Shown here: positions 15,853-41,294 of the stretch, in pieces
How positions within the stretch are numbered: position 1 is the first letter of the stretch
How the letters are laid out: each line of letters starts with the position of its first letter
Source: Polytrichum commune
Lineage: Eukaryota > Streptophyta > Polytrichopsida > Polytrichales > Polytrichaceae
DNA length: 64,000 bases
Direction of reading: 5' to 3'
Assembly (NCBI GenBank): GCA_950295325.1
Contig: OX485804.1
Coordinates: forward strand, 52,254,429-52,318,428
Notes under the pieces: generated by a model
Told to the model about the DNA's origin: nothing
What the model saw: only the letters and a program-made list of their open reading frames with translations
Databases searched by the model: none
Made by a program: the position numbers and the translations under genes

Positions 15853-16772
15853 TTAGGGTGGGGGGACCGGGGTTTGTTTGTTATCAAGTTTTCTTTTGTT
15901 TAGAACTAGGTATGTGAGGTATTTAATGGCGTTTTCGTGTATTTTCTTCATGAGGGATTTAATGTTGTGCTTTGGGATTTTAAGTTTGGTTAATTTTTCT
16001 ATGGAATGTTCGTGTATAGCTCCTCTTACTCCGGCTGTGATGGTAATTAGGGGGTTGACTTTCCAGCCGATGTTTTGTATGTTGTTGATTAGTGGATCGT
16101 ATTTGGTGTGTTTGTGGATGAGGGCTTCGTCCGGGAATCTGTCATGGCAGTATGTGAACTCAATAAATTGGATTGTGTGGTTGGGAGAGGGTAGGATGGG
16201 GGTGGGTGATTGGTTTTGGGCTCCTATAATGCATAGTATGTCGGGTTTTAGCTGGGCTAGACATTGGCATTTCGTTTGTGGGCATGTGCATGCTAAGAGC
16301 CAGTATGGTACTGTGTGATCTTGTGGTTGATTGTTATGGTTACCCGCATTGACCAATGTAAAAAACCTTGTGTTGTTGTTGGCTTGTAGTGTTTGGGTGA
16401 TCAGGTGGACTGCCTTGTTGTGTCTTGCAATTCTTAGTCCTTTTAAGTACGGGTGTTCGCATGTGGATAGTAGGTGGGGCCATGTGTCTCTGTCATTTTT
16501 TTGGCATAATGTGCAGTTAGGGTTCTGGAATTGGAGGGGCCAGAATATATGTTTTCTATGGTTGCCCATATATTGTGCATATCTAAATTTTAGAGTTTGG
16601 GTAATTTGTGTGTCGGGGACCTGTTTGCTTTTCCAAAAGTGGTTGGAAAGTTTTTGGTTGATTTGTTTATTTGATATCCATTTGTCGACGTAAGGGTATT
16701 TTTGGATGGCTAATGCGCATTCTCGGTTTTCGTGCTCTTTAGTTATAAATGTGTCGAAGGTTTCGGATTGCT
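15853..16772 (-). pseudogene. retrotransposon C-terminus: CCHC finger plus restriction-like endonuclease
   Basis: The frame runs from about 16772 to the stop at 15853. It opens with a helical stretch (EHENRECALAIQKYPYVDKW), then a finger with spacing C-x2-C-x9-H-x4-C (CTLC, HLLSTC) and RHNKAVHLI. Next come KPDILCIIG, IQFIEFTYCHD and a downstream K-x2-KY followed by IGWKV. A CCHC finger followed by PD...(D/E)xT...K..KY is the layout of the restriction-like endonuclease of R2, NeSL and Dualen elements. That would be a second nuclease besides the upstream APE domain. The second acidic residue is E rather than the usual D. The block is one frame away from the RNase H reading frame, with a break near 16770. 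The protein ends in a proline-rich TPVPPP. Confidence 0.68.
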
Positions 16773-18600
16773 CCGTCGTGTGTGCCAGTTGGGCAACTTG
16801 CTAACCAATATGGGGTTGTGCGGGCTATGTGTATCCGTGGTGTGGTGTCGGGTTTGTCATTAAATGTTCCCATATTTGCTAGTGTATCTGCCATTTCATT
16901 GCCATTAATGCATGTGTGCGCTCGTACCTTATGTATGTGGACCATGTGTGGGGTCCAATATATTTGGTTGACAATGGCTGCGATAAGAAGTTTGTCCGGG
17001 TGGTGGTGTTGGGATGTTGGGTGTTGTATATGGTTGTTAATTAAGTATATGCTATTGAGGCTGTCTGTAAATATATGGGTGTCTCTTTGGGTGATTTGTA
17101 TGGTTTTGATGGCTATGAGAATAGCATTTAGTTCGGCTCTTAAGATGTTTTGGTATCCGGGTAATCTTTCGGATATTTGGGTGTTGTTGTTGGGGCTATA
17201 TACTCCCGAGCCTGCGGTGTTGCCCACTATTTGTCCCTCGGAGTTTTTGGATGGTGGGATGAATGATCCATCTGTGTATATGCATGCTTGTGGGTCGTAT
17301 TTAAGGGGGTGGATGTGGTGATATGTGAGGGGTAGGGGTGTGGTGGTGGTGTTGGGGGAGGGGGGGATTATTACGTGGGGGGTGTTTTGCCATTTGTTGG
17401 AGAATTTAACGTTGTAGTGTGCATGGGTGGGTTGTATGTGGTGTGTTTCTATATGTGTGTTGGTTAGTCTTTTTAGTATGTTTTGTAGTTCTTGTGCGGA
17501 CCTTGGGTTTGGTGTTATTGTTATTTGGTTATGTATGCAGATGATGGACGTAAGTGATGGTTCAATGTATTGGTAATATTTGGGCCATTCTGGTGTGGGG
17601 TTATATTGGATGCTATGTGGTGGGATGGTTACTATTGTGTGTATGTCTGGGTGGTTGTTGAGTGGTATTTTTTGTGGTGTCCAATCGGTGTGGTTGATTA
17701 TTAGTATGGTAATGGTATTTGTGTCTTCTTTGGCTGCCATTCTAGCCCAGTGTATGGCTTCGACGGTTGTGTTATGGTCAGTGGGGAATGCTAGGCCTAT
17801 GCCATTCCATTTAGAGGAGTGGGCATGTCCTAGTGAGCCAAATATTATGTCTCGGGTGTGTGGTGAGTTGTATTGTGTTAGTTGTGTAGGATATGTGAGT
17901 GGGGATGAGTAGTAGGAGTGTGTGATGTTAAATGTTTCTATGAGGAGTTTAGTTATATCCGGGTGTAGTGTATGGTGTTGGTTTTGGGGTTGGATGGTTT
18001 TTGGCTTTTTCTTAGGTAGTATGGATATGTATCTTTGCATGAGCCATATTATCTCAGTCTCAAAGTCTTGTGGGGGTGGTTGTAGGAAGTTGGTTATGTG
18101 TGGTTGGTTGTTATGGTTAAATTGGTTCCATAGCCAATGTAATCGTTCCGTGGTGATTGTGGCTATGTATTTCCCATTTTGGTCATATATGTTGGATTCA
18201 AGGTTGTGTATTTGTATGGTGGGTTTATTACTAAGGATGTCTTTGTCCGGGTTGCATTCTTGTATGTTGGTGTGTAGGTTGGTGATATTGAGGGGGGGGC
18301 GTATGTATTTTTTGTCTTTTGTTTGTGTGTGAGTGGTGTGGGTGGCGTATTTTTGGATGGCTAGTTGTTCCGTTGTTTTGTTATGGAATTGTGTAATGCG
18401 TAGGAGGTTATGGTCTAGTAGGATGTTATCGGGGTGTAGGAGGTCCGTCTCCTTTCACCATTGTAGTGTGGGTCCTTGTGGATTTAGCCATTGACATAGG
18501 TATTGTTTTGTGATGGCTTGTGCTCCCCATTTGTCTTTTCTTGTGGAGGTTTTGTCTTTGATTATGGCGTGGATTGCCCGTCCGAGGGTGGGTTGGGGGA
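16739..18600 (-). pseudogene. retrotransposon PCIF1-methyltransferase-like domain and RNase H
   Basis: The frame descends from about 18600 to 16739, interrupted by TGA at 18455-18457 (after LQW). The first part has landmarks in the order known from the cap adenine methyltransferase PCIF1: IWLMQRY (helical domain), SSPLT, FGSLGHAHSSKW, then a Rossmann-like stretch ending LTSIICIHNQ. The catalytic NPPF is missing; the matching place reads AFPTD, so methyl transfer is unlikely. RNase H follows with its four acidic positions visible: IYTDGSF (about 17265), RAELNAI, FTDSLNS (about 17060) and NEMADTLAN (about 16880), plus VRAHT. RNase H would remove RNA during reverse transcription. The frame ends early at 16739; a one-base shift near 16770 leads into the nuclease frame. 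Confidence 0.72.
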
Positions 18601-19012
18601 GGGGGGGGGGGGGGGGGTGGTATGTTTGTGGGTGTTTGTTGTGGTAGGTGGGTGTGGTTTAATTGTTGTGTGGATGTTGGTGTCGGTGGGAATATCGTGG
18701 AAGCGTGTTGGAGTGCCGCTTTGATGGTTTTGGTGATGTGGTTATAGGTGGCCCGAAATTCTTCGGGGGTTAGGATGGCCGAGTTTTCTTTGTTTTGAAT
18801 TTGCTTTATTGTTGTTATTCCGTGTGTGTAGAGTTTGTCGAGGTATTTATGTGATTTTATTTTGGAGGTGTCGGTGAGGTTGGTGTATGTTTGTTGTGAT
18901 ATCCACATTTGTTCTAGTGGGGTTTTTCTGAGGGGGAATGCGCGATTTGTTGTGGTGACGTGGATCTCATATTCTCTTTTCAGGAGGAATAGAGTTCTTG
19001 CTATGGGGGATC
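18426..19012 (-). pseudogene. retrotransposon linker after the reverse transcriptase, with poly-C frame break
   Basis: Left side of the MITE insertion. It encodes LFLLKREYEIHVTTTNRAF and continues through TYTNLTDTSKIKSHKYLDKL into a run of prolines coded by an uninterrupted C tract (G on the plus strand, about 18599-18618). After the tract the meaningful frame (GRAIHAIIKDKTS, DKWGAQAITKQYLCQW) is offset from the frame that stops at 18426. Length change in the homopolymer is the obvious cause. Function unknown; it bridges the polymerase and the methyltransferase-like part. Confidence 0.6.
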
Positions 19013-19412
19013 TAAGAGCATCCTCAGTCGGTCTAGGTAAAGCTCACTGCAAACCAAGACCTATCTTGCTTAAAATTGCTCAAAATTTAGAGGGAGTGCA
19101 CCAAATCTTGCTTAAAATGGACAGATCCTCCCACACTCCCTCTAAATGTCAAAAATTTGGAGGGAGTGTGGGAGGATCTTTCCATTTTTAAGCAAGATTT
19201 GGTGCACTCCCTCTAAATTTTGAAAATGTGGTGTTTTCAATGAGGGATTTCACCTACGTCAAATTTTTACAATTCTTTTTTCTTGAGAAATATCTCACGT
19301 TTATTTAGGTGTGCTTCTAATGATGGTAATTTCAGTTTCTAATTTTAGGTCAGTCAGAAGATAGGTTTTGGTTTGCAGTGAGCTTTACCTAGACCGACTG
19401 AGGATGCTCTAA
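19013..19412. mobile_element. Tourist/Harbinger-like MITE inserted in the retrotransposon
   Basis: The element is 19016-19409, flanked by TAA at 19013-19015 and 19410-19412. Terminal inverted repeats of 52 bp starting GAGCATCCTCAGTCGG differ at one position. Inside is a second large inverted repeat (19078-19147 with 19151-19223) around GAGGGAGTGCACCAAATC, so the transcript would fold into a long hairpin. A 3-bp TWA-type duplication points to PIF/Harbinger; the superfamily is inferred. Removing the element and one TAA rejoins the retrotransposon frame exactly (KQQTCI to RSPIARTLF). Confidence 0.88.
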
Positions 19413-21651
19413 TGCATGTTTGTTGTTTTAGTTTGGGGAGGTGCAATGATCCTCCGTATTTGGCTACGATATATTTAGTTAGACCTTGGTAGATGTGGCC
19501 TAGTTGTCCGGGGTCGTTTAAGGCTTGGATGAGTTGTTGACCGATGCAATGTATGTAGTCCGGTAGGAGGGAGGTTACGTTTATGCCGAAGTTTTCGTGT
19601 GGGAGGTGTGTTAGTATGTTGGCCGTGCTTTTAGGTATATTACATATTTCTTTGGTTAATCTTCCTATGATTTTGTCTAGCTTTATGATGTCGGGTTTGG
19701 AGAAGGGGATTGCATAGTATGCATAGGCTATGCGGGGTTTTATGACCGTGTTAAGGATGTTGATTTTTTGTTTAAGACTAGCTGGGGAGAGGGTTAGCAA
19801 TTTGCATTGTTGTTTGGTCCTTTGGAGTGTAGTTTCTTTTTGGATGTTCCATTTTAGAGATGGTATGAGTTGGATACCTAGGTATGCGTATGGTTCATTT
19901 TGTGTGAGGGTGGGAAAGGTTTTTGTTTTGTAGGTAATGTTTTGGGATTGTATGTAGGCTTTGAATGTGTTGGGTTTAAGTTTCGATTGGTTGGGGCACC
20001 CGGTAATGGCGCATTTGGAGAGGTTTAGGTCCATGTGGGACCATTCGGCAAATTTTTGTAACTTGAGTATTTGTGGTTGTATGTGGTTTATGTTGTCGGA
20101 TATGATTGCTAGGTCATCCGCGTAGGCTGTAGTGGTGCACGTGGAGGTGGATGTACTGAAATGGTACCCCATGTCATCTTTTTCTAGCCATCTTAGTAGT
20201 GGTTCTAGGAAAATGATGAAGAGGTAGGGGCTAAGTGTATCCCCTTGGATGGTGCCTCGACTAATTGTTACTGGGGATGTGGTACCAAATTGATTACCTG
20301 TGAATGAGGTTGTTGAGTGTGTGTATATGTTTCCGACTAATTCAACTGCGTCTAAGGGGTAACCCATGTCTTCCATTAGGGCTAGTAATCTTGCGTGATC
20401 AATGGACCCGAAAGCGTTACGAAAATCAATGTAGGTAAGATAAATGTCTTTGTTGGTGAGTTTGGCGTCTTCCAGGGCTGCAATTATCATTTGTAATTGT
20501 CTTGAGGTGTTTCGTTATGGCCGGAAGCCCTCTTGACTGAAGTGTATTATTTTGTGTTTTTCCCCGTATCTTGTGAGTAGGGCCGTTAGGGTACTAGTGT
20601 ATAGTTTATATATGGTATTAGCTAGTGCTATCGGTCGATAATTGGCGAGGTGAATAGGGTCGTCTTTCTTGTGGAGTAGGATGGTTTTACTATGTTTCCA
20701 TTGGGTTGGGATTTCCCTATGTTTGTAGCAATGTTGGAAAAATAGAAAGATTAAGTCTTGGCATTTTGGTGGTAGTGCTTTAAGGATATCATTGGGTATG
20801 TTATCGGGGCCGGGAGCTTTACCTTTTGTTAATCTCTTGACGCAAGTGTCGTATATTGCTCGGGTAAATTGGGTGCTTATGGATGTAGTATGGTGGCCTC
20901 TTTTTTCAAGTATTATTCCATTATGTGTGTGCCAAGGGTATTTGCGAATTGCGCATTGGCATGTGTTTGGGTGGTCTATAGGGTCGCTACATATTGGTAC
21001 TTGTCTTTGGAAGGATGTTTGTTGTGTGTAGTATATTTCATTTGCTATATTTTGGGGTTTGGTTAGGATGTCTCCTTGGGCATTTTGTATGCAGTCTAGG
21101 GAACTTTCGATGGTTGGGTAGAATATCTTTTTGTGTATTGTTTTGGGTTTAATGTTGAGCAGTGCTCGGTATTTTGTGATGGCATTTTTGCAGTTGGTTG
21201 TGGTTTGTTTGACTATGATTTTGTGTGCTTCGATTTTTGCTTTTCGTCCTATGTTGACTATTGCTTCTATCCATCGTGCTTGCTCTGGGGGGTTCGTAGG
21301 GAGTGGGGGAACAATTAGATTGTTAATTAGTGTTAGGAATTGTATGTCGGGGTGGTTTTGGAGGTTGGTATGTGGATGTTGGCATGCGGCCCGAATGGCC
21401 TTTCGAGTTCCGTGATATATTTTGAGATGGTGTTTCCATAATTTTTGTTGTTTTCTAGGTAGGAATCCTCCTTGTTTTTTGGCTCTAGTGGTAAGTGGCG
21501 GTGTGGGTGTTGTCATGCATGTTTTTTCTATGCATTGACTTAGGGAGTTTATGATGTTTTGGAAGTCATTTTGGGCGTCTTGCCATTGTGTTTGTGTGAG
21601 TCGTTCTTGTTGTAGAGTTTTAGTGAGGTTTGTTATCTCTAGGTTTTGTTC
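19413..21651 (-). pseudogene. retrotransposon reverse transcriptase domain
   Basis: Copies element RNA into DNA at the nicked target. The minus-strand frame is continuous except for TAA at 20515-20517 inside QEGFRP-stop-RNTSRQL. Non-LTR reverse transcriptase landmarks appear in order: KGKAPGPDNIPNDIL (about 20820), KHSKTILLHKKDD, NYRPIALANTIYKLY, SQEGFRP, LTYIDFRNAFGSID (block with the first catalytic Asp), RGTIQGDTLSPYLF, and AYADDLAI with the catalytic YADD at 20113-20124. A thumb-like region with PYAYLGIQLIPSLKW follows. Upstream of the fingers, 20830-21516 encodes the usual basic linker (TTRAKKQGGFLPRKQQKLWK). The 3' end of the frame runs into the MITE at 19412. Apart from the nonsense codon the domain is well preserved, so the insertion is probably not very ancient. 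Confidence 0.9.
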
Positions 21652-22746
21652 TTATAAGAATGTGGTTTGGAGGTTTTGGAAGTTTGTGGGAGGTATGGGA
21701 TATATGATGCGGGGGTTGGTGGGGGTCGTTTTGGTCTCTTTAAGAACTATGCTATTAGTGGGTAGTTGGAGTTGTACTGGGTAGTGATCGGAATTTTGGT
21801 TGAGGTTTGTTATTGTGTAACTTTGTAAGGTGTTTTTGTTTGAGTAACCATCTATGTGGCTAGTTGATGTGTAGTTGTGACCTCCTTGTCTTGTGAATTG
21901 TTCTAGGTTGTTTATCGGGTGAAGTCCCAGGGTGCTTGTAAAGTGGGCCCATTCGTAGTCATCTTGGTTAGGAGGGGAGTTTATACCGTTGAAGGATCTT
22001 CCTTTTAGTAGTATGTCCCGGTTGAAGTCTCCCGCTAGGATGATGTAGTGGTTTTGGTGATTGTGGGTGATTGTTAGAAGTTCATTTTGTATGTCTTGTA
22101 TGAGGTGTACGTCCTGAGGGTGTGATGGCATATACATATTAATGAGGAGTATAAGTGTGATAGGTTTGTTGTTGATAAGGATGGCTTGTAAGTAGTGTGA
22201 TATTGGGCTAGGGGTGGGTATTTTGGTGATGTTTTCATTTGTATATATGGTTTTAGGTATCATTGCGAGTATGCCTCCTCGCGTCATAGTGGGTCCGGTG
22301 AATCGATTTTGGTTGGTGGTTAGGTTGTTAGAGTTGTTATAGAGGATTTTATAGTTTTGTAGCTTTTTGTCTATGTATGTTGTGGATTTTAGTTTTTGTA
22401 ATTTAGTTTCTTGTATGAGTATGATGTGGGGGGTTGTGGGTAAGGTTTGTGTAAGTTCTTGGATGCCTGGTAGGCTAGTACTTATGCATCATGTGTTCCA
22501 TGTGATTATTTTCAAGGTCGTTGTTTGGTGGTTGTATGTGTTCGTGATTGCGGGCGGTACGGGGTTGGTGTTTATGTCTTGTGTGTGTGGGTAGTATCCT
22601 TTTATTGTTTGGGTACACTTAGTGAGTTCTTCAAGGATTTTCCGGGGTATGTGAGGTAGTTTCATTTTCAAGTCGTGTAGGTTTGTTGGTTTACCTTTAA
22701 CAATGTTGTTATTAATACGGGAGTATGCTTGTGTTATTGTGGGTAT
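21652..22746 (-). pseudogene. retrotransposon APE-type endonuclease domain
   Basis: Nicks the target DNA to prime reverse transcription. Minus-strand frame with family motifs in order: LKIITWNT (start of fold), ILIQETK with catalytic Glu (about 22412), TRGGILAMIP, INMYMPSH, IILAGDFNRD (about 22020) and LNQNSDHYPVQLQL (about 21785). Two nonsense codons break it: TGA at 22489-22491 right after TWNT and TAA at 21652-21654 between endonuclease and polymerase. The preceding segment (22492-22746) joins the 2A modules in the same frame after TAA at 22747-22749. All parts stay in one register, so the original was one long polyprotein. Confidence 0.85.
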
Positions 22747-24287
22747 TTATGTGTTTGGGGTCGGGATGGTGATGTGGCGTGTGTTTAAGTTTATATTAGT
22801 CGGTGTGTTGTGTAGTCTTTGGAGAATTGTTAGGCATCTTGGGTCTAGGTCGTTGGTCATTAGTTGGTTGCAGATGTCTGGGTTGGGACTATAGACTATT
22901 ATGAATGTGTATAGTTGGTGGTGGGTTGGGTATTCTGAGAGGGATGAACTATGTCGGCGTAGGTGGGGTAGGTCGTGGTTATGTGGGTGGGTATGAGTTT
23001 GAATAATGTAAGGGTCGAATAGTCCCTCAAGGTGGGCATATTGGGCTTTTAGTGTTAGTGAGCCGTGTGTGAAATATTGTTGTTGTCTTTGTTTGTATTC
23101 TTTGGGAAGGTTTTTAAGTATGTGTGTGGGTTGGCCCGGGTTTGTTTGAATGTCTCCTCCCAAGAGAATGATAGTGGAATTGTTCCATGTGTAGTAGTAT
23201 ATAGTTTTGGTTTTTGGAGACTTGAGGTGTGTATGAGTTACATATGTAAAGCAGCCTATATATGTTGTGATGTTGATATGTGGAGTTGGAGGGGTGAGTT
23301 GTTTTATTGGTATAGGGGGGAATGTGTTGTGCATATTAGTGGAGCTTTGGTATGTGTAAGTGGTTGAAGCTTTGTGGTTGTAGTAGGTTATGTGGATTTG
23401 TTGTGGTGTTGTTGTTGGTGTGTGATGTGTGTATATAAAGTTTGTTATGGTGATTGGGAGTGTGGTGTATGTGTAAGTGTAACATTCATCCTCCGGGTGG
23501 ATGTGGTGTGGGAAGGTGAGTGGGGATGTATGACGTGATTGTTGTGTGGGGCGGAATTTTGAGACTAAATTATTAGCTATTTGTTGATTATATATGCATG
23601 GTTCCGGGGTATATGTCCGTAGTAAGGTATGATCTATCGGGTTCCTGCCTGTTATCATGCGTTGGTTGCATATTTGTGGTATAGGGCTATATGTTATTAT
23701 GAGGACATATATTTGGAGGTGGGTTGGGTATTTTGAGAGTAGTGACTTGTGCTTTTGGAGATGGGATAGTTTATGGTTAAGGGTGTTTTGTGTGCCATGT
23801 GTTAGGTGGGGTGTGAGTAGGTTTTCGAGATGTATGTAACGAGGTTTGGGCGATGTTGTATTAGGTTTGAAGTATTGGTTTTGTCTTTGTTTGTATTATA
23901 AGGGGAGGTTTTGGGTGATGTGTGAAAGTGGACCCGGGTTGGGTTGTATGTCTCCACCAAGGAGGATGATTTTGGAGTTGTTCCATGTGTAATAGTATAT
24001 GACCTTGGTTTTCGGAGTTTTAAGGTGATTATGATTTATGTATGTAATGCTACCTATGTATGTTGAGGTGTGAATATGTGGGATTGGGGTGGTAAGACGG
24101 TTTCTTGGTGTGGCCGGGGGTGTCATGTTTGTGTTAATGTGGTTAAGGTATGTGGAAGTGATGGAGGCTTTGTGATCATTGTAGGTTATGTAGTGTTGGT
24201 ATGATGTTGTTGTTAAAGTGTTATGTGGTTGGTGCCACTCTAAGGCCAATGGTTGTGTGTTTTGTATGGGGGGGGGGTATTGCAATG
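22747..24287 (-). pseudogene. tandem 2A-motif modules at the N-terminus of retrotransposon ORF2
   Basis: Two related modules follow one another in the same frame, about 798 bp apart. Each has a PKTK-x-IYYYTWNNS lead, a hydrophobic IILLGG, then a 2A-like motif, then an EYKQRQ...YF and HLE-x-L segment ending YSPxPxICNQ. Motif one, GDIQPNPGP, is at 23929-23952. Motif two, GDIQTNPGQ, is at 23131-23154. 2A peptides (consensus D-V/I-E-x-N-P-G-P) make ribosomes skip the last Gly-Pro bond and release the upstream product; some non-LTR elements carry one. Here Glu is Gln in both and the final Pro is Gln in the second, so skipping is plausible for the first and doubtful for the second. TAA at 23896-23898 falls where module two has an in-frame Glu codon. 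The true ORF2 start is not clear. Confidence 0.72.
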
Positions 24288-24515
24288 GGTATATGTGAGT
24301 GAGAGGGTGAGGATGGTGATTATTATATAAACTTGGTGTGTGTGGGGGATGGGGGTTTTGTGAGGTTGTTTGTGGTGAGTGCGTATGTCATTGTAGGGGA
24401 TGGTGTGTTGCTTATGGTGGTGGCGGTGTATGGAGGTAAATGTCTTTTATTTATGAGAAAATAGAGAGTACATAGTGTATGTATGAGCATCGTCCATGCG
24501 TATTCTATGCCTATG

Positions 24516-26352
24516 CTAATCATGTGATTGATATGGATCTTTGTGGAGGCTTGATGGGGAGTTCCTATAGTGGGCATTCGAGAATCCCGGTGGTGCGTGT
24601 GGGGGGTTGTTGGTGTCACCTCCGTATGTGTTGATCAAGGGCGTGCTCGGTGCGGATGGGAGTCTTGCTATGTTGGTGTGGGGAGGGTCCGGTGATGTGG
24701 CGGCCAACGTTTGCATTATGTTATGAATGCGATTGTTCGATTGTTGAAACTCCATCGCCATGGCACTCATGATGCTATGAATATTGGTGGCATGTGTCTT
24801 GAGGATGTCCGTCGAAGCCTCAATGCGCATGTCGGTGTTGTGGTTGATGTTGTGGGTGAGCGTGGTAAGTTTGTCATCCATCGTTTCGGTTAGCTCTTTC
24901 ATGGCCTTGGTGAAGAGTTTCTCCGAGACTAGCGGGGAAGATGCAGCTATGTTGTTCATGGCTTGGGCTTTTTGAGCAATTACTTCTCTCATGGGGGCTT
25001 GCGCTAGGCGGATGGCGGTTTGATTGGGTTCGGTGCCGTCAATGCTCCCTTTGTGTGGGACGAAGTCCACCCTTCTCCCAAGGATGTAGGTGGATTTATG
25101 TAGCCATTCGGTGTAAACTGCCGCGTTGAGACATTGTATATGGCACCAACCGGCTTGCCTATCATCGGGTTGGTTGGTCTTATATCCATATGTGATTCCG
25201 GTGATGTTCTCCTCTCCAAATAGCCTCTTGAGCGATTTGGTGATTGTTGATTGAGATTCGCGTTGCGGGAGGTTGTTGGCAACCAAGGTCGTGCTAATCC
25301 TTAGCTCCGATGGGTTACTCAAGTCTTTGTCTTTGGTGACGCTCACTTTGAGGCGTTCGGAATGGAAGGTGAGGCCGTTGGTGAGGATGTTTTCTCGGGC
25401 TTCTTCGGTGGTGAGGGTGATGAAGGCGAAGTCTCTCTCCGAATCCGATTTGGTGAGGGAGAGGATTTCGACCTCTCTCCCATCATAGTATGAATCTCTC
25501 ATGAGGCTCCTAAGTATGTCCAATGCCGTGTGGTTGCATAGTGCCTCGCCTTTGAGGTAGAGTCTCATGTTCTTAGCCTTGGTGATGAGCTCGAAGCCCT
25601 TCTCTACCTTCCCTATGGTGCGTTCTCCATCCCCCATGGTCATGACGAAAGCCCTTTCTTCCCGGAGTAGAGCGAGGCCGTCTCGTTGTGGAAATTGGAG
25701 GTAGAATTTGATAAAACCGGCCCAATTCCTCGTGACCGTGTTGATGCCGATGTCTATTGGATTGGAGTAGGTGGTACCAAGTGGTATGTTCATACTCCGA
25801 AGTCTCTCCATGCATGCGGTCTTGACCTCCCTTCGGTTGAGTTGCTTGTACTCGCCATCAAATCGTATGGTTACATGGAAGCCTTCGGTGAGGCCCGTGT
25901 CTTGGGATGTCTTCTCGTACATGGGAATTTGTGTGAAGTGGAGATGTTGTCCCGGCACCGCGTCCGGTCGCTCGTTGGGGTAGAGGATTTGTTTTGACTC
26001 TTGGGAATGCTCTTCGAATCGTTCTAAATTCTTGTACCTCATTGGTGGGTGTGCCAAGGGTGGCGAATTCTTCATCGGTGCGCTTCTCCTTCAACTCCTT
26101 CTTGCCTCTTTGGGTGGCTAGAGTTTCGTGCATGTGGAATCCTAGCCACATATGGCCGATCATGTCAATGCCAATTGTGGACATCCTCCTTGCTCTTGAG
26201 GATGTTGGTGTTGGCTTGTGTTGTGTGTCGGGTGTGGAGGTTGCGGTGTAGTCTTCGGCCTTCCTTCTCTTGGTGGATTGACTCTCCGTAGCATCTTCGA
26301 TTCGAGGGTTGCGGTATTGGAGTGTGGGGGGCGTGCTCTCGATGTTGTGCAT
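24516..26352 (-). pseudogene. retrotransposon ORF1 with RRM-like domains, frame-broken
   Basis: Probable RNA-binding protein of the retrotransposon. An upstream frame from ATG at 26352 (MHNIESTPPTLQ, with KRRK and RARR basic patches) gives sensible sequence to about 26000. After that the meaningful frame is the one that ends at 24516 (RFEEHSQESKQ, FHVTIRFDGEYKQLN). The two frames overlap from 26075 to 25858. The main part has RRM-like features: RDFAFITLTTEEA resembles an RNP1 strand, and ISTTLVANNLPQRES through AGWCHIQCLNAAVYTEWLH to ILGRRVDFVPH has the spacing of a second fold. A helical stretch (KLFTKAMKELTETMDDKL) may be a coiled coil. Codon use is less A/C-biased than in the rest of the element. 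Whether the shift is a mutation or programmed cannot be decided from one copy. Confidence 0.6.
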
Positions 26353-26385
26353 GGAATTGGCGGGGAACGCTTGGTGTGAGGTGTG

Positions 26386-28857
26386 CTAATATGTCATTTG
26401 TAGGGAGCTACCTCCCCTTTCTGGAGACACATTCTCCAACTGCGCGTCCATGTCAAGATCCTCCTCTGCATCCAGGTTGTGTGAGTGGGGGGCGTGATTG
26501 GAGAGTTGCGACGTATGAGTGATCGGCTGCTGGGATAGGACCTGTTGGCGGAATGCTTTGTACTGATCTTTGAGTGGGGGCGGCGGGTGTGTACCTGTAG
26601 GTTGGTTAGTGGGATTCATGACTTCAAGAGGTCTGATCAAGGGATTACCTTGTGCTATGATAAATTGTTGGTGTCGGGTGAAGAGCGCGTCTGAGTCGGT
26701 GTGTTGTGCGTGGTTGAGTTGCTGGATGGGTCCTGGTGTAGTGTGTGGTCGAGTTCGGATGTGCGTTGGCATAGTGTGTGTTGGGTGATGTGTGGAGTTT
26801 GTTGTTGTTGTTGTTGGTGGTCGGGGCTGGTGCGGTGTCGGGGGCTTGACGTGCTGCTGTGGGTGGTTCGGGGTCAGTTGTGAGTGCAGTGAGTGTTGTG
26901 AGGGCAGTAGTCTTGAGCTGAATTGTGGGTGGTGTGTGCAGGCGGGAGCTGGTGCTGTCTTCGGTACTGCCTCCGGTGCGGTGGGGTCTGCGGTCGTGAG
27001 GTGGCCGTGTTGGTGGTGCTGTTGGGAGTCGGCGACGGCGTTGGCGTTAGTTGGCCTGGTGTAGTGTGTGGTCGCGCTCGGGGGTTGTCGTTTGCTGTGG
27101 GTCGGTGAGGTGGGGCCACGTGTGTCTACGGGAGTTGGTTCGCTCCTGTTGGTGCAGCAGCTTGTGTCGTTGCGGTGGAGGGCGGTGTGAGAGAGGTGGG
27201 TGGGAGGGGAAGTGTGCAGGTGGATGGGTTTCTGCGGTGTTAGACTGGAGATGCTGGAGAGTGCATGAGGGGTTGAGTCGGTGGCTGTGGAAGTAGGAGG
27301 AGAGGGGGGGAGATGCTGGCAGTTGCTATGTGTAGGGGGACATAAGTGAATTGAGAAGTGGATGCTGGTTGTTGTGTGGTGGCGAGGTTTATGTAGGGGA
27401 TGTTGTGTGTTTTCTTGGGGGGGGGTGCGTTGTGGTGGCCGTTGGTGGCTGGCTTTGGTGGGAGCTGATGCCAGGTATGGTTTCGCATTTTTTGGTGTGT
27501 TTTGGGCTGTGTAGTGGCTTTGTGTGTATGCTCGAATTGGGAGGGTGTGATCTGTAGGGTGTGTCTTTGGGGTGTGTGTGGGTGGGCATTTTTTTGTTTT
27601 TTGTGTGTTGTTAGTTTTGCTTGCTTTATTGGGGATCTGTGGGTTGGTTATTTTGGCTATTGGGGTGTCTGTTGGATTGGTTTTTTGGGGGGTATGGGAT
27701 GTGTTGTCGTGGTGGGTGACCGGTGACAGTGTGTGCAATGTGTCAGAAGTTTGGTGCGAGTGGGGTCTGTAGGTTCTGGTTGGTTCTTGGGGTGTTTTCC
27801 GGGAGGAGTGCGGGGTGGCGGTGTTTAGGGGGATTAGGGTGTGAGTGAGTGGGTGTGGCTGTGGGTTGTGTGACTTCTTTGTTGGAGGTGGTATGTGTTG
27901 GCATTGTGTTTGTGTGGGGGTTTCGGTGTTGTGTGTGTGCCTTTGTGTGTGCAGCTTGGGTATTGAGCCGGTGGAGCGACTTCTGCGCTCGATTTGTTCG
28001 GCTGGCTGGGTGTGGCAGTTGTGTGGGTGTGGCAGTTGTGTGGGTGTGGCAGTTGCTGGTGCGGTTGAGGAGCATGGCGATCGAGTAGGGTAAGTTTCTG
28101 TTGCTTGCTTGGTAGCTGTGTGGTATAAAGGTGCCAGTGAGATGGAGTGGATTTGATCGGGGGCAGTTCGATTGATAGCTGTGGCGAGGTGGGTTGAGTG
28201 TATGTGGCAGGTGGATTGCTTCCTGTGCTGGTGATTCTTTGTGTGAGGTTGCTTCGTGGAGTTGCTTGTGTGGATGTGTCTTGTGTGGATGTGGTGTAGT
28301 GGTGTGGCAGAGTGGAGGTGTGTGTTGTGTGGGGGGGTGGAGTAGCGTGACGGTGTTCGTACCTGATGTGATGTAGCTGGTAGATCTCGGGTATGCTTCT
28401 GTGTTGTGGGTGGATGCGAGCATTGTGGGCCGATCGGAGGGGGAGGGCTGTTGTGACTTGCGGCCCTGCGTTCAGCTTGCTTGTCCTGGCCGGTTGCTTG
28501 TGCATTCGCCATCTCCCTTTCGGGCGATTGTTGGTGTGGCTGGTGTTGGCGAGGCGCTCTTGTGGGTCGTCGCAGGTACTTCTTCGGATGCCGGTCTTTC
28601 GGTGGCTGGAGCGGCTTATTGGTGCGCTCCGGGCGGGTGCGGGGTGCTGGTGGCATTGGCTTGGCGGGGGTTCGGTGTAGCGGATCTGCTCCTTGTGCGG
28701 CAGTGGCTCCTTGCAACGTTGGTGTAGGGTGGGAGTTAGATCTAGGGTTAGCAGGGGGGAGGTTGTGTTGATCTCCCTTTGAGGATGTTTGAGCCATGGC
28801 CCTGCAATCTGATTGTGGCTCAGCAGTGCATAAATCACTAATAAAGTTCCCCATTGA
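26386..28857 (-). CDS. low-complexity His/Thr/Pro-rich open frame in the 5' part of the retrotransposon
   Basis: From ATG at 28857 (MGNFISDLCTAEPQSDC) a frame of about 824 codons runs to a stop at 26386. It is dominated by H, T, P, S and N with no recognisable domain, except an acidic tail (DAEEDLDMDAQLENV). Other minus-strand frames in the same interval are also long and open (27834-29126, 27743-28423). This is expected when the strand is C/A-rich and poor in T, which makes stop codons rare. It may therefore be a non-coding leader that merely looks open. It might instead encode a disordered ORF1 partner. I favour neither strongly. Confidence 0.3.
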   Translation of the reverse strand, partial: SMGNFISDLCTAEPQSDCRAMAQTSSKGDQHNLPPANPRSNSHPTPTLQGATAAQGADPLHRTPAKPMPPAPRTRPERTNKPLQPPKDRHPKKYLRRPTRAPRQHQPHQQSPEREMANAQATGQDKQAERRAASHNSPPPPIGPQCSHPPTTQKHTRDLPATSHQVRTPSRYSTPPHNTHLHSATPLHHIHTRHIHTSNSTKQPHTKNHQHRKQSTCHIHSTHLATAINRTAPDQIHSISLAPLYHTATKQATETYPTRSPCSSTAPATATPTQLPHPHNCHTQPAEQIERRSRSTGSIPKLHTQRHTHNTETPTQTQCQHIPPPTKKSHNPQPHPLTHTLIPLNTATPHSSRKTPQEPTRTYRPHSHQTSDTLHTLSPVTHHDNTSHTPQKTNPTDTPIAKITNPQIPNKASKTNNTQKTKKCPPTHTPKTHPTDHTLPIRAYTQSHYTAQNTPKNAKPYLASAPTKASHQRPPQRTPPQENTQHPLHKPRHHTTTSIHFSIHLCPPTHSNCQHLPPSPPTSTATDSTPHALSSISSLTPQKPIHLHTSPPTHLSHTALHRNDTSCCTNRSEPTPVDTRGPTSPTHSKRQPPSATTHYTRPTNANAVADSQQHHQHGHLTTADPTAPEAVPKTAPAPACTHHPQFSSRLLPSQHSLHSQLTPNHPQQHVKPPTPHQPRPPTTTTTNSTHHPTHTMPTHIRTRPHTTPGPIQQLNHAQHTDSDALFTRHQQFIIAQGNPLIRPLEVMNPTNQPTGTHPPPPLKDQYKAFRQQVLSQQPITHTSQLSNHAPHSHNLDAEEDLDMDAQLENVSPERGGSSLQMTY

Positions 28858-29864: not shown

Positions 29865-30398
29865 TTAAAATATGATAGTATTATGCTAATAACACAACAA
29901 TTAGGGTGTTAATCACACACTTAAGATAAAAATGAAACATTTAAGCATTTAATCAAGCACATGGTATGACTTAGGCTTGGGTTAGTCTAATAACGCAACA
30001 ACTAGTATAAGTATGTTAGCAATAGGGTAATAACACAACAATTAAGACGCTAATCATACAGTTAAGATAAAAATGAAACATTTTAAGTTGTCAATCAAGA
30101 ATTTGGCGTGCATTAGGCAATGGGTTAGTCCAGTAACACAATAATTAGCAAAAATATGGTAGCATTAGGCTAATTACACAATAATTAGGGTGCTAATCAC
30201 ACACTTAAGATAAAAATGAGACATTTAAGCATTTAATCAAGCATATGGTATGGCTTAGGCTATGGGTTAGTCTAATAAGACAAAAATAGGAATAAATATG
30301 GTAGCATTAGGCTAATAACACATAAATTTTGGTGCTAATTATACACTTAAGACAAAAATAAAACACTTAAGCCATTAATCAAGAATATGGTGTGCCTC
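29865..30398. repeat. tandem array, about 142-bp unit, about 3.7 copies
   Basis: The anchor CACTTAAGATAAAAATGA recurs at about 29921, 30062, 30205 and 30347 (spacings 141, 143, 142). Each unit also carries GGTTAGTCTAATAA and GGTAGCATTAGGCTAAT. AT-rich and non-coding. The unit size falls in the range of many satellite monomers. Confidence 0.85.
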
Positions 30399-35164: not shown

Positions 35165-38100
35165 TTAATTCTCAGAGCCAGTGCTCTCAGCCTCCCCTCC
35201 CTCTACTGGTAAATCCTCCTTGAACCAATTGCGAATCCCACCTTCCATGTGCACTATGTTCTTATAACCTTCTAGTGTCAAAATGTAGGCAGCTATCAAG
35301 GACCTGCCAGCACCCACAATGTTAAAACAAATAGCCATGATGATAACCTAAAACTACACTAAACATCAGATTTGTTGCAGCTCATAATATTCACCATCGA
35401 CCCACATTTATTGTCTTACAGTCACTGGGTGACAACTCAAGAGGGTGGCATATGACACTTGGTGCTACATGACAAGTCATGAAGACCACTCTAATTAACA
35501 TGACCAATTAATGTCACATAAATCACATGTCTAGTGTAGTTACAACAAGGGCAAGGCATCTGATCAATCCTTAGTGGAGCTACAACTCATGCTAAACATT
35601 TTCACTACTAGAAGACACATCATGGAAGGAACTCCATCTCTTGATCAAAGAGGTGCATGGTTCCTCATGCAAGGTGTAGGTGCCTAATTAGATTATTTAT
35701 CTTGATCAAACACCTATATTTGAGCAGTATGCAGTTACATGTGATTCCAAGGACACACAAAAAACATATCTTCAGTAGAGATCGGACTACATTCTCAGAA
35801 TATAGTAACCATTCTAGGTCCAAATGTCAACATAATTGTGGGGGAGCTATACGACCATGTAATGATTAACCTTGAACAGTAATATTAAGTCGTAGCCACT
35901 ATGAGATATCTCGATGATATGGCATCTCTACTGTACGGAGGATGGTCATAACCCATAGCCATATCTCCTTCCAATTGGTGAAGTGGTAACCCAACAAATG
36001 ATATTAAATCTTGATTTCTTGTTTAGATTGATTCTTCCTTACTGGTTATGTATGTTAACTGAACATGTCACCCAACTATGGGTGATAGCCGTGCCCACTT
36101 GTGGCTCGTCAGGACAACTGGCTACAACACATGGCTGCGCCAATAACCAACACTCGTCTCCCAAATATGGGTTACAGCTGTGCCCACTCGCTGCTCCTGC
36201 AGCTCGTGAAGACGACTGGCTGGAAACCATAGGATAGTTGGGGTCCATATAACTATAACAGACGTATATAAAATTAACTATGCTCTGGCTCCATACTCAT
36301 AATCGAAGAATTTTCAGCTGACTCCCTTCCAGGTTCCGACTGATAGCATTGGAATAGAAGCTCCCCAATCACCTGTGTTATACTCTTGATTTCTGTGAAC
36401 CAAATAAGTTGATAGTCCCAACCTATGTACCGATTTCCAGGGATATTTAAAGATAAGAGCTAACCTGGACTGCTGACCGTCTGCCAGATTGGGAGTGGGC
36501 TTCACAGTGCCACCAGATTGGCAACCGATAATAATTTTAGCACCTTTATCCAGCTTGGAAGTCACATCTGTAGGCCCAATCCACACACAGAAAAAGGATT
36601 GAAAAAAGAGATGAATGGAAGAGGTACCTTGACTCTTTGCCCTCATTCATGGCCGAGCTGGGTCTCATTGTTCCCCCCATAGTGCATGCAACAACAACTG
36701 GCGACTCCTTATCAAGCATTTCCCCAATTTCTGTGCAAGGGCCAATGATGCACATTTACTTGATGGCATTCCTACTTACTAATGTTTTAGTAGAAGAGTG
36801 CCACTTATTTCTTTAAAACCCTACAAACAGTTAGTGCCCAAGAAAAGCCTCACACAGTGGACCAACCAAAGCTTTGATGTGCTAGGAAGAAGGAAAGATG
36901 ACTCCGATGTTGCCACCAGCTTATGAGTTTGTCTAAGTCTATATGTAATCCCATAACAGGCATTCCAAGAATTAGAGGGGCCTGAAGACTACTGCCTCTT
37001 TTCAAAAGTGAACACCTTGAACGGATATAGACAAGCTGGCAGGCACCTATCTCCTCCAAGGGCCCTAGGTTCACCTGCATACCCCCACTATGATTGGTGG
37101 AGCATGTCTAGTAGGGTGCACCGGAAATGAAGTGCTAGAAAGGCCACTCATCCTAGTACTATTATGCTGGCCTTAGGTGGCTTAACCTCAGAGTTCCCGA
37201 TCCAGGTAAAGACCTTAAGTTTAAGGCACCCTTTTGATGTGCAGACACAATCAAGATCCCACAGCACAGAGCATTGCCACTAGGTTAAAAGTCCCAGGGT
37301 GCTCCCGGGAAGTCACTGGTACAACTTTCCAACTCAAATAGACACTCTCGAAATCTTCGCATCATGCTTGTAACAAGGTAGAGGACCAATCAGAATATCA
37401 CATGCTTGAAGCGGAGTGAACCCAAAACACACTGCCCTGGGACAACTACAATGAAGAGGACTGTTCTCGATGAGTCCATCGGATGCATTGGCCACAAGGT
37501 GCATTCTACAAATCTTAATTTCAAGCATCAATCCTTAACACACATAATTTTGTTCCAAATGTGGGCTCCACGTCAACTTACAGAAATTATTCAAGTTACA
37601 ATGATGTGCCATAGTTACAGACGAAACAATATAATGTACGACTTCAGTCTCCTTTTCCTTGACTCATGCCAAGGAGACTTGTCACCTTTGAAACAAGGGA
37701 AAGAAAGAAAAAGTTTTCTGGAAACTGAGTGCAACTTTCGTTTCAAGGGTCCATGATTATCAGCTTTCTGGAAATGCCAGTAAATGAGCCTCACAGACAC
37801 CAATGGTCACCAGAAAGATCTTCGAGGTTTTTGATTTATGCCACAACATACCTTTCAAAAATTCAGGATTCTCTTCTGTTCCTGCAAATATTCCAAAGAA
37901 AGCAAAAGCCGCACGCCGTGCAATGTCCCAGGGAGTCCACTCCTTGATGAGTCTATAGAGTTGTACATTAATCGCTCCTGTGGGATGAGCCTACATGCCG
38001 AAATGTGACATCACATCAGCGTGAAGAATCTAACATCTCTGTGTAGATACGTCATTTCAAGTAACCTCATGATTTCAGCAGGACTGGCAAAGCCAAGCAT

Positions 38101-41100
38101 CTCCAATATGCAAGTGACCAGCGCTGAATGTTGACAAAATGTTGATACAAATTCTTTCATGTTTAACATCTTTCAGCACTCACTCAATCCACCTCATACT
38201 AGACCTTTGAGGTCTTGCAACTCTCAAATATAGGAACAAAAGATTTGTATATTTGGATCATATGTCCAAACGGGCAACCCTATGTTTTGTAGGCATTTGA
38301 TTCAATTTTGTAGTTTGATCCGATTGAATCAATGTAAAGTCAGTGTTGGTAGATTTCCTATTTGCAGGTTTATTATGAGTATTCTCAAAGAAGGACTACC
38401 TCTTCAAATTCAGCTTCTGGCCGCACGTCAAGGATAACGTAACCTTGTTCTTGTTGGAGCCGTAAAGCTTCCTTTGCTGATACTGACCGCATCTGCACAA
38501 CCAATCAAGGAAACAGTTGAGAAATCTTTAGATGGTCTTGAGGAAATCTAACTGTCAATCGTCTAAAGACTCCAATGGCCATGTCAGCATTCTACCTCCT
38601 AGCAAGATATTGAAACTAACCTACCAGTCTGAAGGGTCGATTAGATCAATTTGATCTGGCTGATTTACCAAAAACCAACCAGATCAATCTCCAAGTGGTA
38701 CAAGGAGGACACAAAACAACTTCTAAAGAATGGAAGTATATTGAAAATACCAAAAAGGTGAGAATCGAGTTACCTTGTTCTTCATGAGCACTTCACGCTT
38801 TGTTTTCCAATCCACCTCAGCTGCAACCTCAACAGACATGAACGAATGTGAGCAAACATCACCATCTCACCTGGAATATGAAAAATCTCAAGGAGTTGAC
38901 ATACAAGTATCAACACATAGATCTTAAGTCCCAAGTTTCAGGTTTCCAGTGCCTCTCAGAAAGCACAGAAAGCCCAAAGGTTCATAAATGAGAAAATCCT
39001 TGTTGCTGTGAGGTATCCGGGTGTTACTCGGTTATAATTCTTCATCAGACACCCATATTTGATTGGTGTGTGGTGAGGTGAGGATCAGAGAACAAACACT
39101 ATAAAGACACATGTTTGGAAGAGATTAAGCTATGTCTTCAAGCTTTATTAACTACTCCACACTCAAAAGTGAACACAACTGGGAGGGCCCTGTGTATTCA
39201 GTTGAGAAACCAACAAACATGCACTTCCAATTACATTTCTGAATCAATTGAGGTCCGATTTTCAATCCAATTAATGCTGATGCTTCATCGTAGATTTGCT
39301 AATGCAACACAAGTTTTGTTGCCGTAATTCTAATCGGTAGAAGTTGGAGAACATAAGAAACGAACCGAAGAACACCCATATACCATATACGAGGAATGGC
39401 AGCTACACCACGACTCCAGTCTCTGAGCTAAGGTTAGTTTTCCAAAAATCAGTAATAACTGTGTTAGTTCTCGTAGGTGTCATCCTCTTCAATCAACGGA
39501 AACCTCCGACAGAAACAAAGTGTTTGTCAACTTCATGTCTTCCAGAGACTCACTTCTTTCTCTGACCCACCTGCAGCAAATTGCTTGCCTTGTATGTATG
39601 TCTGTATCCAGGATTGTTACACTATCCGGATGTACAAGCTTCCAGAGTTCCACTTTGATATAGTCCAAGCTAAAAGTCATATGAAGGCAAATTGGATTAT
39701 TGCAGGATCCTTGATTGCCCTGTGGAATGGAGAGTTGTGTGAAGAGAGATTCACAGGATTACAAGAATCTCGTCTTCCTGTTCTTTAGGAGAGTTCATTT
39801 AAGTGGGTACATCTCTCGAGAACACGGGTTTCTTTATTTTCATTTGTATTCCAACCTTCATATCATGAAAAATGGGTGACCCTGGCTCATGACAAAACCG
39901 CCTCTTAACCCACAACCTCGAGCACTATAAATGCGGTGCTCGTAATGACAAGGTCAACACTACCTATAGAAGTTCCTCCATATAACATATTCAGGAACAT
40001 TCCTACAAACCCGTTTTCAATCCATCGCCCTGGACCCTTACAGCAATCTTCTTGTAAGGCCGGAGGGTTAAGTTAATTCTGGCTATACTGCAGCGGACAT
40101 TTCTCAGGTATCCTCGAAGACTGTGCAGCCCATATCTTGGGTACAACAACTGGGAAGTAAATTTCAAACTGCCCACATGCCCTATAGGGAATATCCTATA
40201 TGCTGAACTAAAATTGGGGTCTAAAATTGGGGTCCACAATGGAATCGGTAGCCCGATGACTATTTCCTGAGTGACGTTCATGAGCACCATAAGGGGTCCC
40301 AGATTCCAATGTGACCTGGGTTTGGGGTTTTTCTACATGGGGCACTAGAAGTGCAGAGAACAACAATCTCCCATTGCTAGTCGGTTCATTTGAACATGAT
40401 TCCCATGGGGAAGGAAGCGCCACGTGCTGGTAAACATGGACCGATATGTAGAATGACTCCCAAATAGCAGCATTCCACTAGAAAACACGGTGCGATAAAA
40501 GATAGAATTCCACTAGAAAAGAATGGCGGCGTATTTGAAATTTATTTTGAGGATGTAATAGCCAGATTTCAAGACTATTCATCAAATATGCAGGATAATC
40601 CCATGAACATGCGCATTATTTCAGAGCCCCCTTGGAAATACCCCATCATAGCGCATGATTCATATCTCTACAGGGGAGTTAACCCCTAGAGCAACCTTTC
40701 TTCGTCAAGAGGACCTCTTCTGTGTACTTTTGAGTCATGTGGCCGGGGATTACTTCACTTTTGTCATGACACGAATCCCATATTCTCCATCTCTTTGGCA
40801 TGACAGAGGAGTACCACCTAGTGCTAATAAATCAAAGTTCGAACAAACAAAAATCGCTTAATGATGCGGATTGCACACTAAGCCGAGGACACTATGATGT
40901 CCGAAATACATAGTGTCATTTGCGAAGACTCCATTCCGAGCAATTCACCCACCAAAGCCACGAGAATGAACCCATAAATCCCAGCCTTCGTTATATTGAC
41001 GACCAATCGCTTGAACATTTCAAAAGAAACGCTTGAAAATGCACGACAATACGACAAATTCCCAACAGGAAGCGCACCTGCAGACTTGGGAGGACCCGTG

Positions 41101-41294
41101 GCAATGCTGCGAACGGTAAGAGGCGCCCATTGTGTCTGCCCTCTGCATCCCCCTCTCCGTTGCCGCGAGGCTCCGGTCATGAGGGGCAAGAAAGTGGGAT
41201 GATGCTGCCTCTGCTGCTGAGCTCCTCCAGAAGCAGCCGGAGCCGCAGCCGCAGCGGTCGCCGGCGTCATCACCATACCCACCGCCATAGCCAT
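35165..41294 (-). CDS. STR14: chloroplast rhodanese-like domain protein, STR14-like (six-exon gene)
   Basis: Single-domain sulfurtransferase-like protein of the plastid; the physiological substrate of this family is not well defined. Exons, in transcript order: 41078-41294, 38774-38820, 38398-38490, 37852-37990, one of 36628-36730 or 36465-36567, and 35165-35303. All have GT-AG borders and the phases agree, giving 245 residues. Residues 1-72 are an Ala/Arg/Ser-rich presequence typical of plastid targeting. The rhodanese fold spans about 89-232: SVSAKEALRLQQEQGYVILD, DVRPEAEFEE, WTPWDIARRAAFAFFGIF, the active-site Cys at 181 (CTMGGT or CQSGGT), SLIAAYILTLEGYKN and MEGGIRNWF. The order and the WDIARR..FAFFGIF insert match Arabidopsis STR14 (At4g27700) as I remember it. 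Intron 1 is 2.26 kb and holds a dispersed repeat. The start is the first ATG opening the presequence. Confidence 0.88.
36465..36567 (-). other. STR14: alternative active-site exon 5b of the rhodanese gene
   Basis: 103 nt between GGCCTACAG and GTTAGCT. It encodes VTSKLDKGAKIIIGCQSGGT then VKPTPNLADGQQSR, closer to the usual STR14 sequence as I recall it. Only 60 nt separate it from exon 5a. Using both in one mRNA would shift the frame (206 nt), so they should be mutually exclusive. Confidence 0.82.
36628..36730 (-). other. STR14: alternative active-site exon 5a of the rhodanese gene
   Basis: 103 nt between CTTGCACAG and GTACCTC. It encodes IGEMLDKESPVVVACTMGGT then MRPSSAMNEGKESR. It enters after one base of a codon and leaves after two, exactly like exon 5b. 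It carries the catalytic Cys and the GGT loop. Confidence 0.82.
39016..39390 (+). repeat. dispersed repeat in rhodanese intron 1, paired with 49160-49520
   Basis: Shares with 49160-49520, in the same order and orientation, CATATTTGATTGGTGTGTG, GATGCTTCATCGTAGATT and AGAAGTTGGAG. Non-coding. It looks like an old transposon fragment present in two copies. Confidence 0.65.

Follow-up and report, generated by a model that had tools for sequence, protein, structure and literature searches.

A candidate pair of mutually exclusive exons that would exchange the predicted catalytic loop of a chloroplast rhodanese in the moss Polytrichum commune

The rhodanese gene STR14 of Polytrichum commune was found to carry two neighbouring, homologous versions of exon 5, here named 5A and 5B. 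The best explanation, which we consider probable, is that they are mutually exclusive exons generated by duplication of exon 5 and kept apart by steric exclusion, giving two isoforms with different predicted catalytic loops. Mutually exclusive splicing had been proposed at this place in a sequence-only reading, and the proposal was supported, at the level of sequence, by exon anatomy and evolution, because the two are neighbouring homologous internal exons of equal phase, their double use or double skipping breaks the frame, the spacer between them is short and 5A bears signs of protein-level constraint. The window, that is, the whole stretch of DNA analysed, was 64 kb long and belongs to contig C2; positions without a contig prefix refer to the window.

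Gene structure and identity

The gene encodes a rhodanese of 245 aa and spans 41294 to 35165 of the minus strand in seven exons, two of which (5A and 5B) are alternative:

Exon 1: 41078..41294, minus strand, 217 nt; ATG at 41294, donor GTGCGC, presumed transit peptide
Exon 2: 38774..38820, minus strand, 47 nt
Exon 3: 38400..38492, minus strand, 93 nt; the rhodanese domain begins here (DVRPEAEFEE)
Exon 4: 37852..37990, minus strand, 139 nt; donor AAAG/GTATGT, common to both splice paths
Exon 5A (alternative): 36628..36730, minus strand, 103 nt; EIGEMLDKESPVVVACTMGGTMRPSSAMNEGKESR; Cys181
Spacer between 5A and 5B: 36568..36627, minus strand, 60 nt; adenines at spacer positions 3, 12, 16, 28, 29, 48, 57 and 59
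Exon 5B (alternative): 36465..36567, minus strand, 103 nt; DVTSKLDKGAKIIIGCQSGGTVKPTPNLADGQQSR; Cys181; canonical land-plant form
Exon 6: 35165..35303, minus strand, 139 nt; last coding exon, SLIAAYILTLEGYKNIVHMEGG..., stop TAA

The 3' end of exon 1 was consistent with the consensus of STR14 homologues. Among the matches listed, the top proteins came from Ceratodon purpureus, Sphagnum fallax and unnamed contigs, followed mostly by flowering-plant proteins, and many of the latter carried the name 'rhodanese-like domain-containing protein 14, chloroplastic', on account of which the protein was assigned to the plastid. In agreement with orthology to STR14, the named best matches were land-plant STR14 proteins and a single full-length copy was found in the genome; the search of the 408-Mb genome gave no second full-length STR14 gene, the other examined matches being a rhodanese relative on C4 and fragments borne by repeats. 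The C4 relative (C4:19225267-19225791; L023:4259-5182) is a single-frame, single-exon gene distant from STR14, and its loop after the Cys is longer and different (SVGGTLQTFVERKGPK...). The Pfam Rhodanese domain (PF00581, cut-off 22.2) scored 53.0 bits in the 5A isoform and 51.8 bits in the 5B isoform, and by this measure the two predicted spliced isoforms fit the family equally well.

Anatomy of the exon pair and the encoded loop

Both exons are exactly 103 nt long, have AG directly upstream and GT directly downstream, and agree in entry and exit phase. The two adjoining exons described in the sequence-only reading were confirmed on the minus strand, 5A at 36730-36628 and 5B at 36567-36465; their separation of 60 nt was verified from the exon borders, and the four splice-junction coordinates proposed earlier agreed with the gene model. 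Either isoform comprises 245 aa and lacks internal stops. Cys181, at the catalytic position, stands in CTMGGT in the 5A isoform and in CQSGGT in the 5B isoform, so the Cys and GGT loop claimed for both exons held, and the identity given as about a third was right, being 11/35 amino acids (31%), with 50/103 at the nucleotide level. As had also been stated, inclusion of both exons breaks the frame: a stop follows 22 nt into 5B and precedes the last junction by 81 nt. A message that retains the 60-nt spacer also has its stop 81 nt ahead of that junction, and skipping of both exons causes a frameshift with a 167-aa product.

The structure encoded by exon 5 was examined in a Ceratodon homologue modelled with AlphaFold (mean pLDDT 70.7, about 55 in the loop region), in which a strand at 172-175 leads into Cys176 and the next helix starts from 195. 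Based on this layout, exon 5 would encode a strand together with the catalytic Cys that follows it and the long loop reaching the next helix. The Cys matching Cys181 was invariant across 38 aligned homologues, and Cys181 heads the predicted active-site loop of a rhodanese in both isoforms. Judged by this model, the swap of 5A for 5B replaces the predicted catalytic loop and leaves the remaining protein unchanged.

Resemblance of 5A to 5B and protein-level constraint

An exon-5 profile was built from 91 distinct segments of 120 listed homologues and slid over the six frames of the window. The scores of 5B and 5A were 90.8 and 46.5, the next-best segment reached -9.5, and the highest score in 60 first-order random sequences of 64 kb, each scanned on one strand, was -1.1. 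In addition, both strands were scanned for open, phase-matched segments with AG/GT borders that differed from exon 5 by no more than 15 nt in length, a procedure patterned on the criteria in PMC3228551. Of the 809 segments that qualified across the window, none but 5A and 5B reached at least 10% of the 5B self score. Each of the two also reached it in a truncated form, which for 5A ends at a GT inside the exon. With our own gap costs, 5A attained 40.8% of the 5B self score. In the control runs, which covered exons 3, 4 and 5A, exons 3 and 4 recovered only overlaps with themselves and 5A recovered 5B and its own overlaps. Regarding the criteria in PMC3228551, 5A and 5B are neighbouring internal exons (at least two are required) flanked by further exons, namely 4 and 6; they are similar in length, splice-site type and reading frame (103/103 nt, AG...GT, same phase, no in-frame stop); and the 40.8% compares with a minimal homology score of 15%. 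No trace of the duplication was seen in the spacer and flank comparisons, with 16/60 and 14/60 bases identical.

A neutral null was obtained by random mutation of 5B down to 50/103 identical bases in 20,000 trials, a design that presupposes an ancestor resembling 5B and a single mutation model. The BLOSUM62 score of 5A to 5B was 76, compared with a simulated mean of 9.5 (sd 13.4) and maximum of 64, and 0/20,000 trials reached 5A; the family-profile score of 5A was 51.5 against a simulated maximum of 20.1. Plain amino-acid identity (11/35) was by itself not beyond neutral drift (simulated P 0.066). At the divergence of 5A, a stop is expected in 68% of the neutrally simulated sequences. At family positions invariant in at least 95%, 5A keeps 9/14, including the Cys, GGT, P, G and SR, and 5B keeps 14/14; the five departures of 5A are K11P, I13V, L28M, Q32K and Q33E. 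Differences between 5A and 5B by codon positions 1, 2 and 3 numbered 17/34, 12/35 and 24/34 (chi-square p 0.010), being commonest at the third and rarest at the second position. Under the simulated null, these results indicated that 5A is shaped as protein and is not neutral debris; the simulation excludes a long neutral decay of 5A and is compatible with a very recent loss of use.

Origin and age of 5A

A homologue set of 174 distinct proteins was assembled from 120 of 500 matches to the full 5A isoform and 120 of 288 matches to 5A residues 150-222. Among these listed matches, which included Ceratodon and Sphagnum, 0/174 resembled 5A more than 5B and one was equally close to both; exon-5 identity was at most 20/35 with 5A and 16-25/35 with 5B. 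A search of public proteins with residues 163-203 of the 5A isoform gave no candidate, and no second copy of 5A was found in the 408-Mb genome. From these comparisons, 5B is the ordinary land-plant exon and 5A the extra one.

The 5B loop shares GCQSGGT with Ceratodon-type proteins, with one residue fewer between PEFL and the Cys, a difference that makes close kinship of this moss with Ceratodon improbable. In place of the GCQS of these mosses, 5A carries VAC and TMRPS, which are frequent in vascular plants, and because of these states an early split of 5A from 5B is hinted at. In the exon-5 tree (32 rows after removal of identical segments, 35 columns), 5A was placed on a long branch (0.93) apart from 5B. 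The AU test on the 35 columns rejected none of the placements compared, with p-AU of 0.161 for 5A with 5B and of 0.272 and 0.351 for 5A with mosses.

Proposed basis of exclusion

Splicing of exon 4 to 5A to 6 would give a protein with the loop CTMGGTMRPSSAMNEGKESR, and splicing of exon 4 to 5B to 6 would give one with the loop CQSGGTVKPTPNLADGQQSR. Joining of 5A to 5B would be prevented by geometry, any 5B branch point in the 60-nt spacer being so near the 5A donor that the two could not be engaged together. Double inclusion that leaked through should trigger nonsense-mediated decay (NMD), because its stop precedes the last junction by 81 nt, and such a position is usual for NMD targets.

The spacer adenines that fall in the usual branch-point range, 31-48 nt from the acceptor, stand 12-29 nt from the 5A donor, and all spacer adenines at least 12 nt from the 5B acceptor lie within 48 nt of that donor. 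For vertebrates, a steric threshold of about 50 nt between the 5' splice site and the branch point has been described for joint recruitment (PMC7969005), and introns shorter than 60 bp made up fewer than 0.2% in a four-eudicot set (PMC6581728). Given the adenine positions relative to the vertebrate threshold and the rarity of such short eudicot introns, splicing of 5A to 5B should be very poor. The adenine geometry thus agrees with the earlier view that the spacer is probably too short for efficient splicing, by vertebrate and eudicot yardsticks from which the moss minimum may differ. Taking frame and spacer geometry together, use of a single exon per message is predicted. We further infer that both isoforms are made, that steric hindrance keeps the exons apart, and that the two loops serve different sulfur donors, acceptors or partners.

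The 371-nt region enclosing the exon pair folded no better than shuffled sequences (z +1.69; 97/100 shuffles at least as good), and no convincing docking/selector repeat was found, with only two weak inverted repeats in 2561 nt. The donors of 5A and 5B match the consensus equally (7/9 bases each), and splice-site matches do not rank the exons.

Other features of the window and genome

The intron after 5B contains a 41-base direct repeat, at 36067-36107 and 36156-36196, whose copies are 80% alike and 89 bases apart. Elsewhere in the genome, six dispersed repeat copies carry pieces of STR14 exons 2-4 with intron edges and with stops inside, their source being at about 38834-37933 of the window:

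L017: C3:37656000-37665900, repeat copy
L018: C1:255500-265400, repeat copy
L019: C2:42504500-42514400, repeat copy
L020: C4:696000-705900, repeat copy
L021: C1:68363000-68372900, repeat copy, exon 2 not seen
L022: C7:36865000-36874900, repeat copy, exon 3 not seen

The matches of all six stop at the identical base of exon 4, and kilobase stretches are shared at about 87-99% identity; because of this common end point and these shared stretches, a mobile element seems to have captured the STR14 piece once and then spread it. At about 16000-28000 of the window, a 12-kb stretch of extreme strand bias was noted on the minus strand (GC skew up to +0.51, AT skew about -0.37), with five minus-strand frames of at least 350 aa. 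Three of these frames were scanned; one matched Pfam RNase H, on the strength of which the stretch is probably a retroelement, and the other two gave no Pfam match. It is adjoined by a tandem array at 29868-30391 with a 142-base unit in 3.7 copies.

Discussion

The intactness of 5A could also be accounted for if it were a relic, i.e. a formerly functional alternative exon long under constraint whose splicing has since become rare or ceased, leaving 5B as the source of all the protein. The 0/174 homologues nearer to 5A than to 5B, among the matches listed, and the loss of 5/14 near-invariant residues are in line with such a history. However, the frame, both splice borders, the exact length, the Cys and GGT are all intact, and 68% of neutrally simulated sequences of such divergence are expected to contain a stop, although recent disuse would leave no mark; we regard this history as unlikely. 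Alternatively, double inclusion or spacer retention could serve as an NMD target that tunes the dose of STR14, in a switch between productive and unproductive splicing to which the 5A protein is beside the point. The both-exon and the spacer-retained messages indeed each have their stop 81 nt upstream of the last junction, but a poison exon need not retain a rhodanese loop, Cys181 and phase, all of which 5A retains, and the joining of 5A to 5B that the switch calls for is disfavoured by the spacer geometry. Such a role is accordingly judged to be highly improbable.

The probability that 5A is a chance open segment, or a piece of another rhodanese gene inserted in the intron, is negligible. Movement of STR14 sequence seems to have occurred, as the six examined repeat copies of the same genome hold captured pieces of the gene, but the captured pieces found are confined to parts of exons 2-4, the loop of the nearest other rhodanese (C4:19225267-19225791) is longer and different, and no second 5A copy was found in the genome; the profile score of 5A, moreover, was far over the best of 60 random sequences. 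For practical purposes, a chance segment or transferred fragment is refuted by the profile score, the loop difference and the genome search, which gave no second copy.

Mutually exclusive splicing of 5A and 5B, the explanation preferred here, can be set beside known systems. The whole protein and exon 5B are like land-plant STR14, unlike which the moss gene has the extra exon 5A, with 0/174 homologues nearer to 5A among the matches listed. Dscam-type arrays consist of tandemly duplicated exons which are spliced one at a time with the aid of docking/selector RNA pairing. The moss gene differs in having two exons only, and supporting RNA pairing was not found (z +1.69 over 371 nt; 2561 nt for repeats). 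The tandem duplication of exons is shared with these arrays, the exons of Dscam being spliced singly (PMC1397879).

On sequence grounds, the 5A/5B pair of STR14 is most likely a member of a known exon class, notable for the exchange of a catalytic loop in a plant enzyme. FLOWERING LOCUS M (FLM) of Arabidopsis is a transcription factor whose exon swap falls in the DNA-binding part, unlike the moss STR14 swap, which exchanges the predicted catalytic loop of an enzyme. The likeness is that FLM, also a plant gene, uses its exons 2 and 3 in a mutually exclusive manner, giving FLM-beta and FLM-delta, two proteins implicated in opposing flowering effects (PMC6987439). Exons 4a/4b of vertebrate OGDH are similar in being mutually exclusive exons of a metabolic enzyme subject to steric exclusion, which in the moss is proposed; in human OGDH the branch points lie 25-41 nt from the upstream donor, under the steric threshold of about 50 nt (PMC7969005). 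The OGDH branch points in that source were mapped experimentally and are unusually distant from the acceptor, whereas the moss spacer is simply 60 nt long and its branch point is deduced.

In an Arabidopsis proteome study, mutually exclusive exons accounted for 11/2442 identified splicing events (PMC13136898), from which the class appears to be rare in plants. Since alternative splicing was reported to contribute little to the proteome in Physcomitrella (PMC6581706, a review), a second protein is not to be presumed. The words 'mutually exclusive' and 'rhodanese' are absent from the Physcomitrella splicing paper PMC5457400, and no published report of the 5A/5B pair was found in the available portions of the literature on mutually exclusive exons, rhodanese, STR14 and chloroplast.

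A further reading, possible but tentative, is that 5A is an old second catalytic loop which diverged from 5B no later than the early radiation of mosses and has been retained in this lineage, so that there would be two chloroplast sulfurtransferases with distinct donors, acceptors or partners. If this were true, the two isoforms would differ in nothing but the active-site exon, and a single gene would stand in for two paralogues. Production of both isoforms would make the pair a compact plant case of exclusion by spacer length alone; comparing the isoforms would then reveal the loop residues that determine the sulfur acceptor of a plastid rhodanese.
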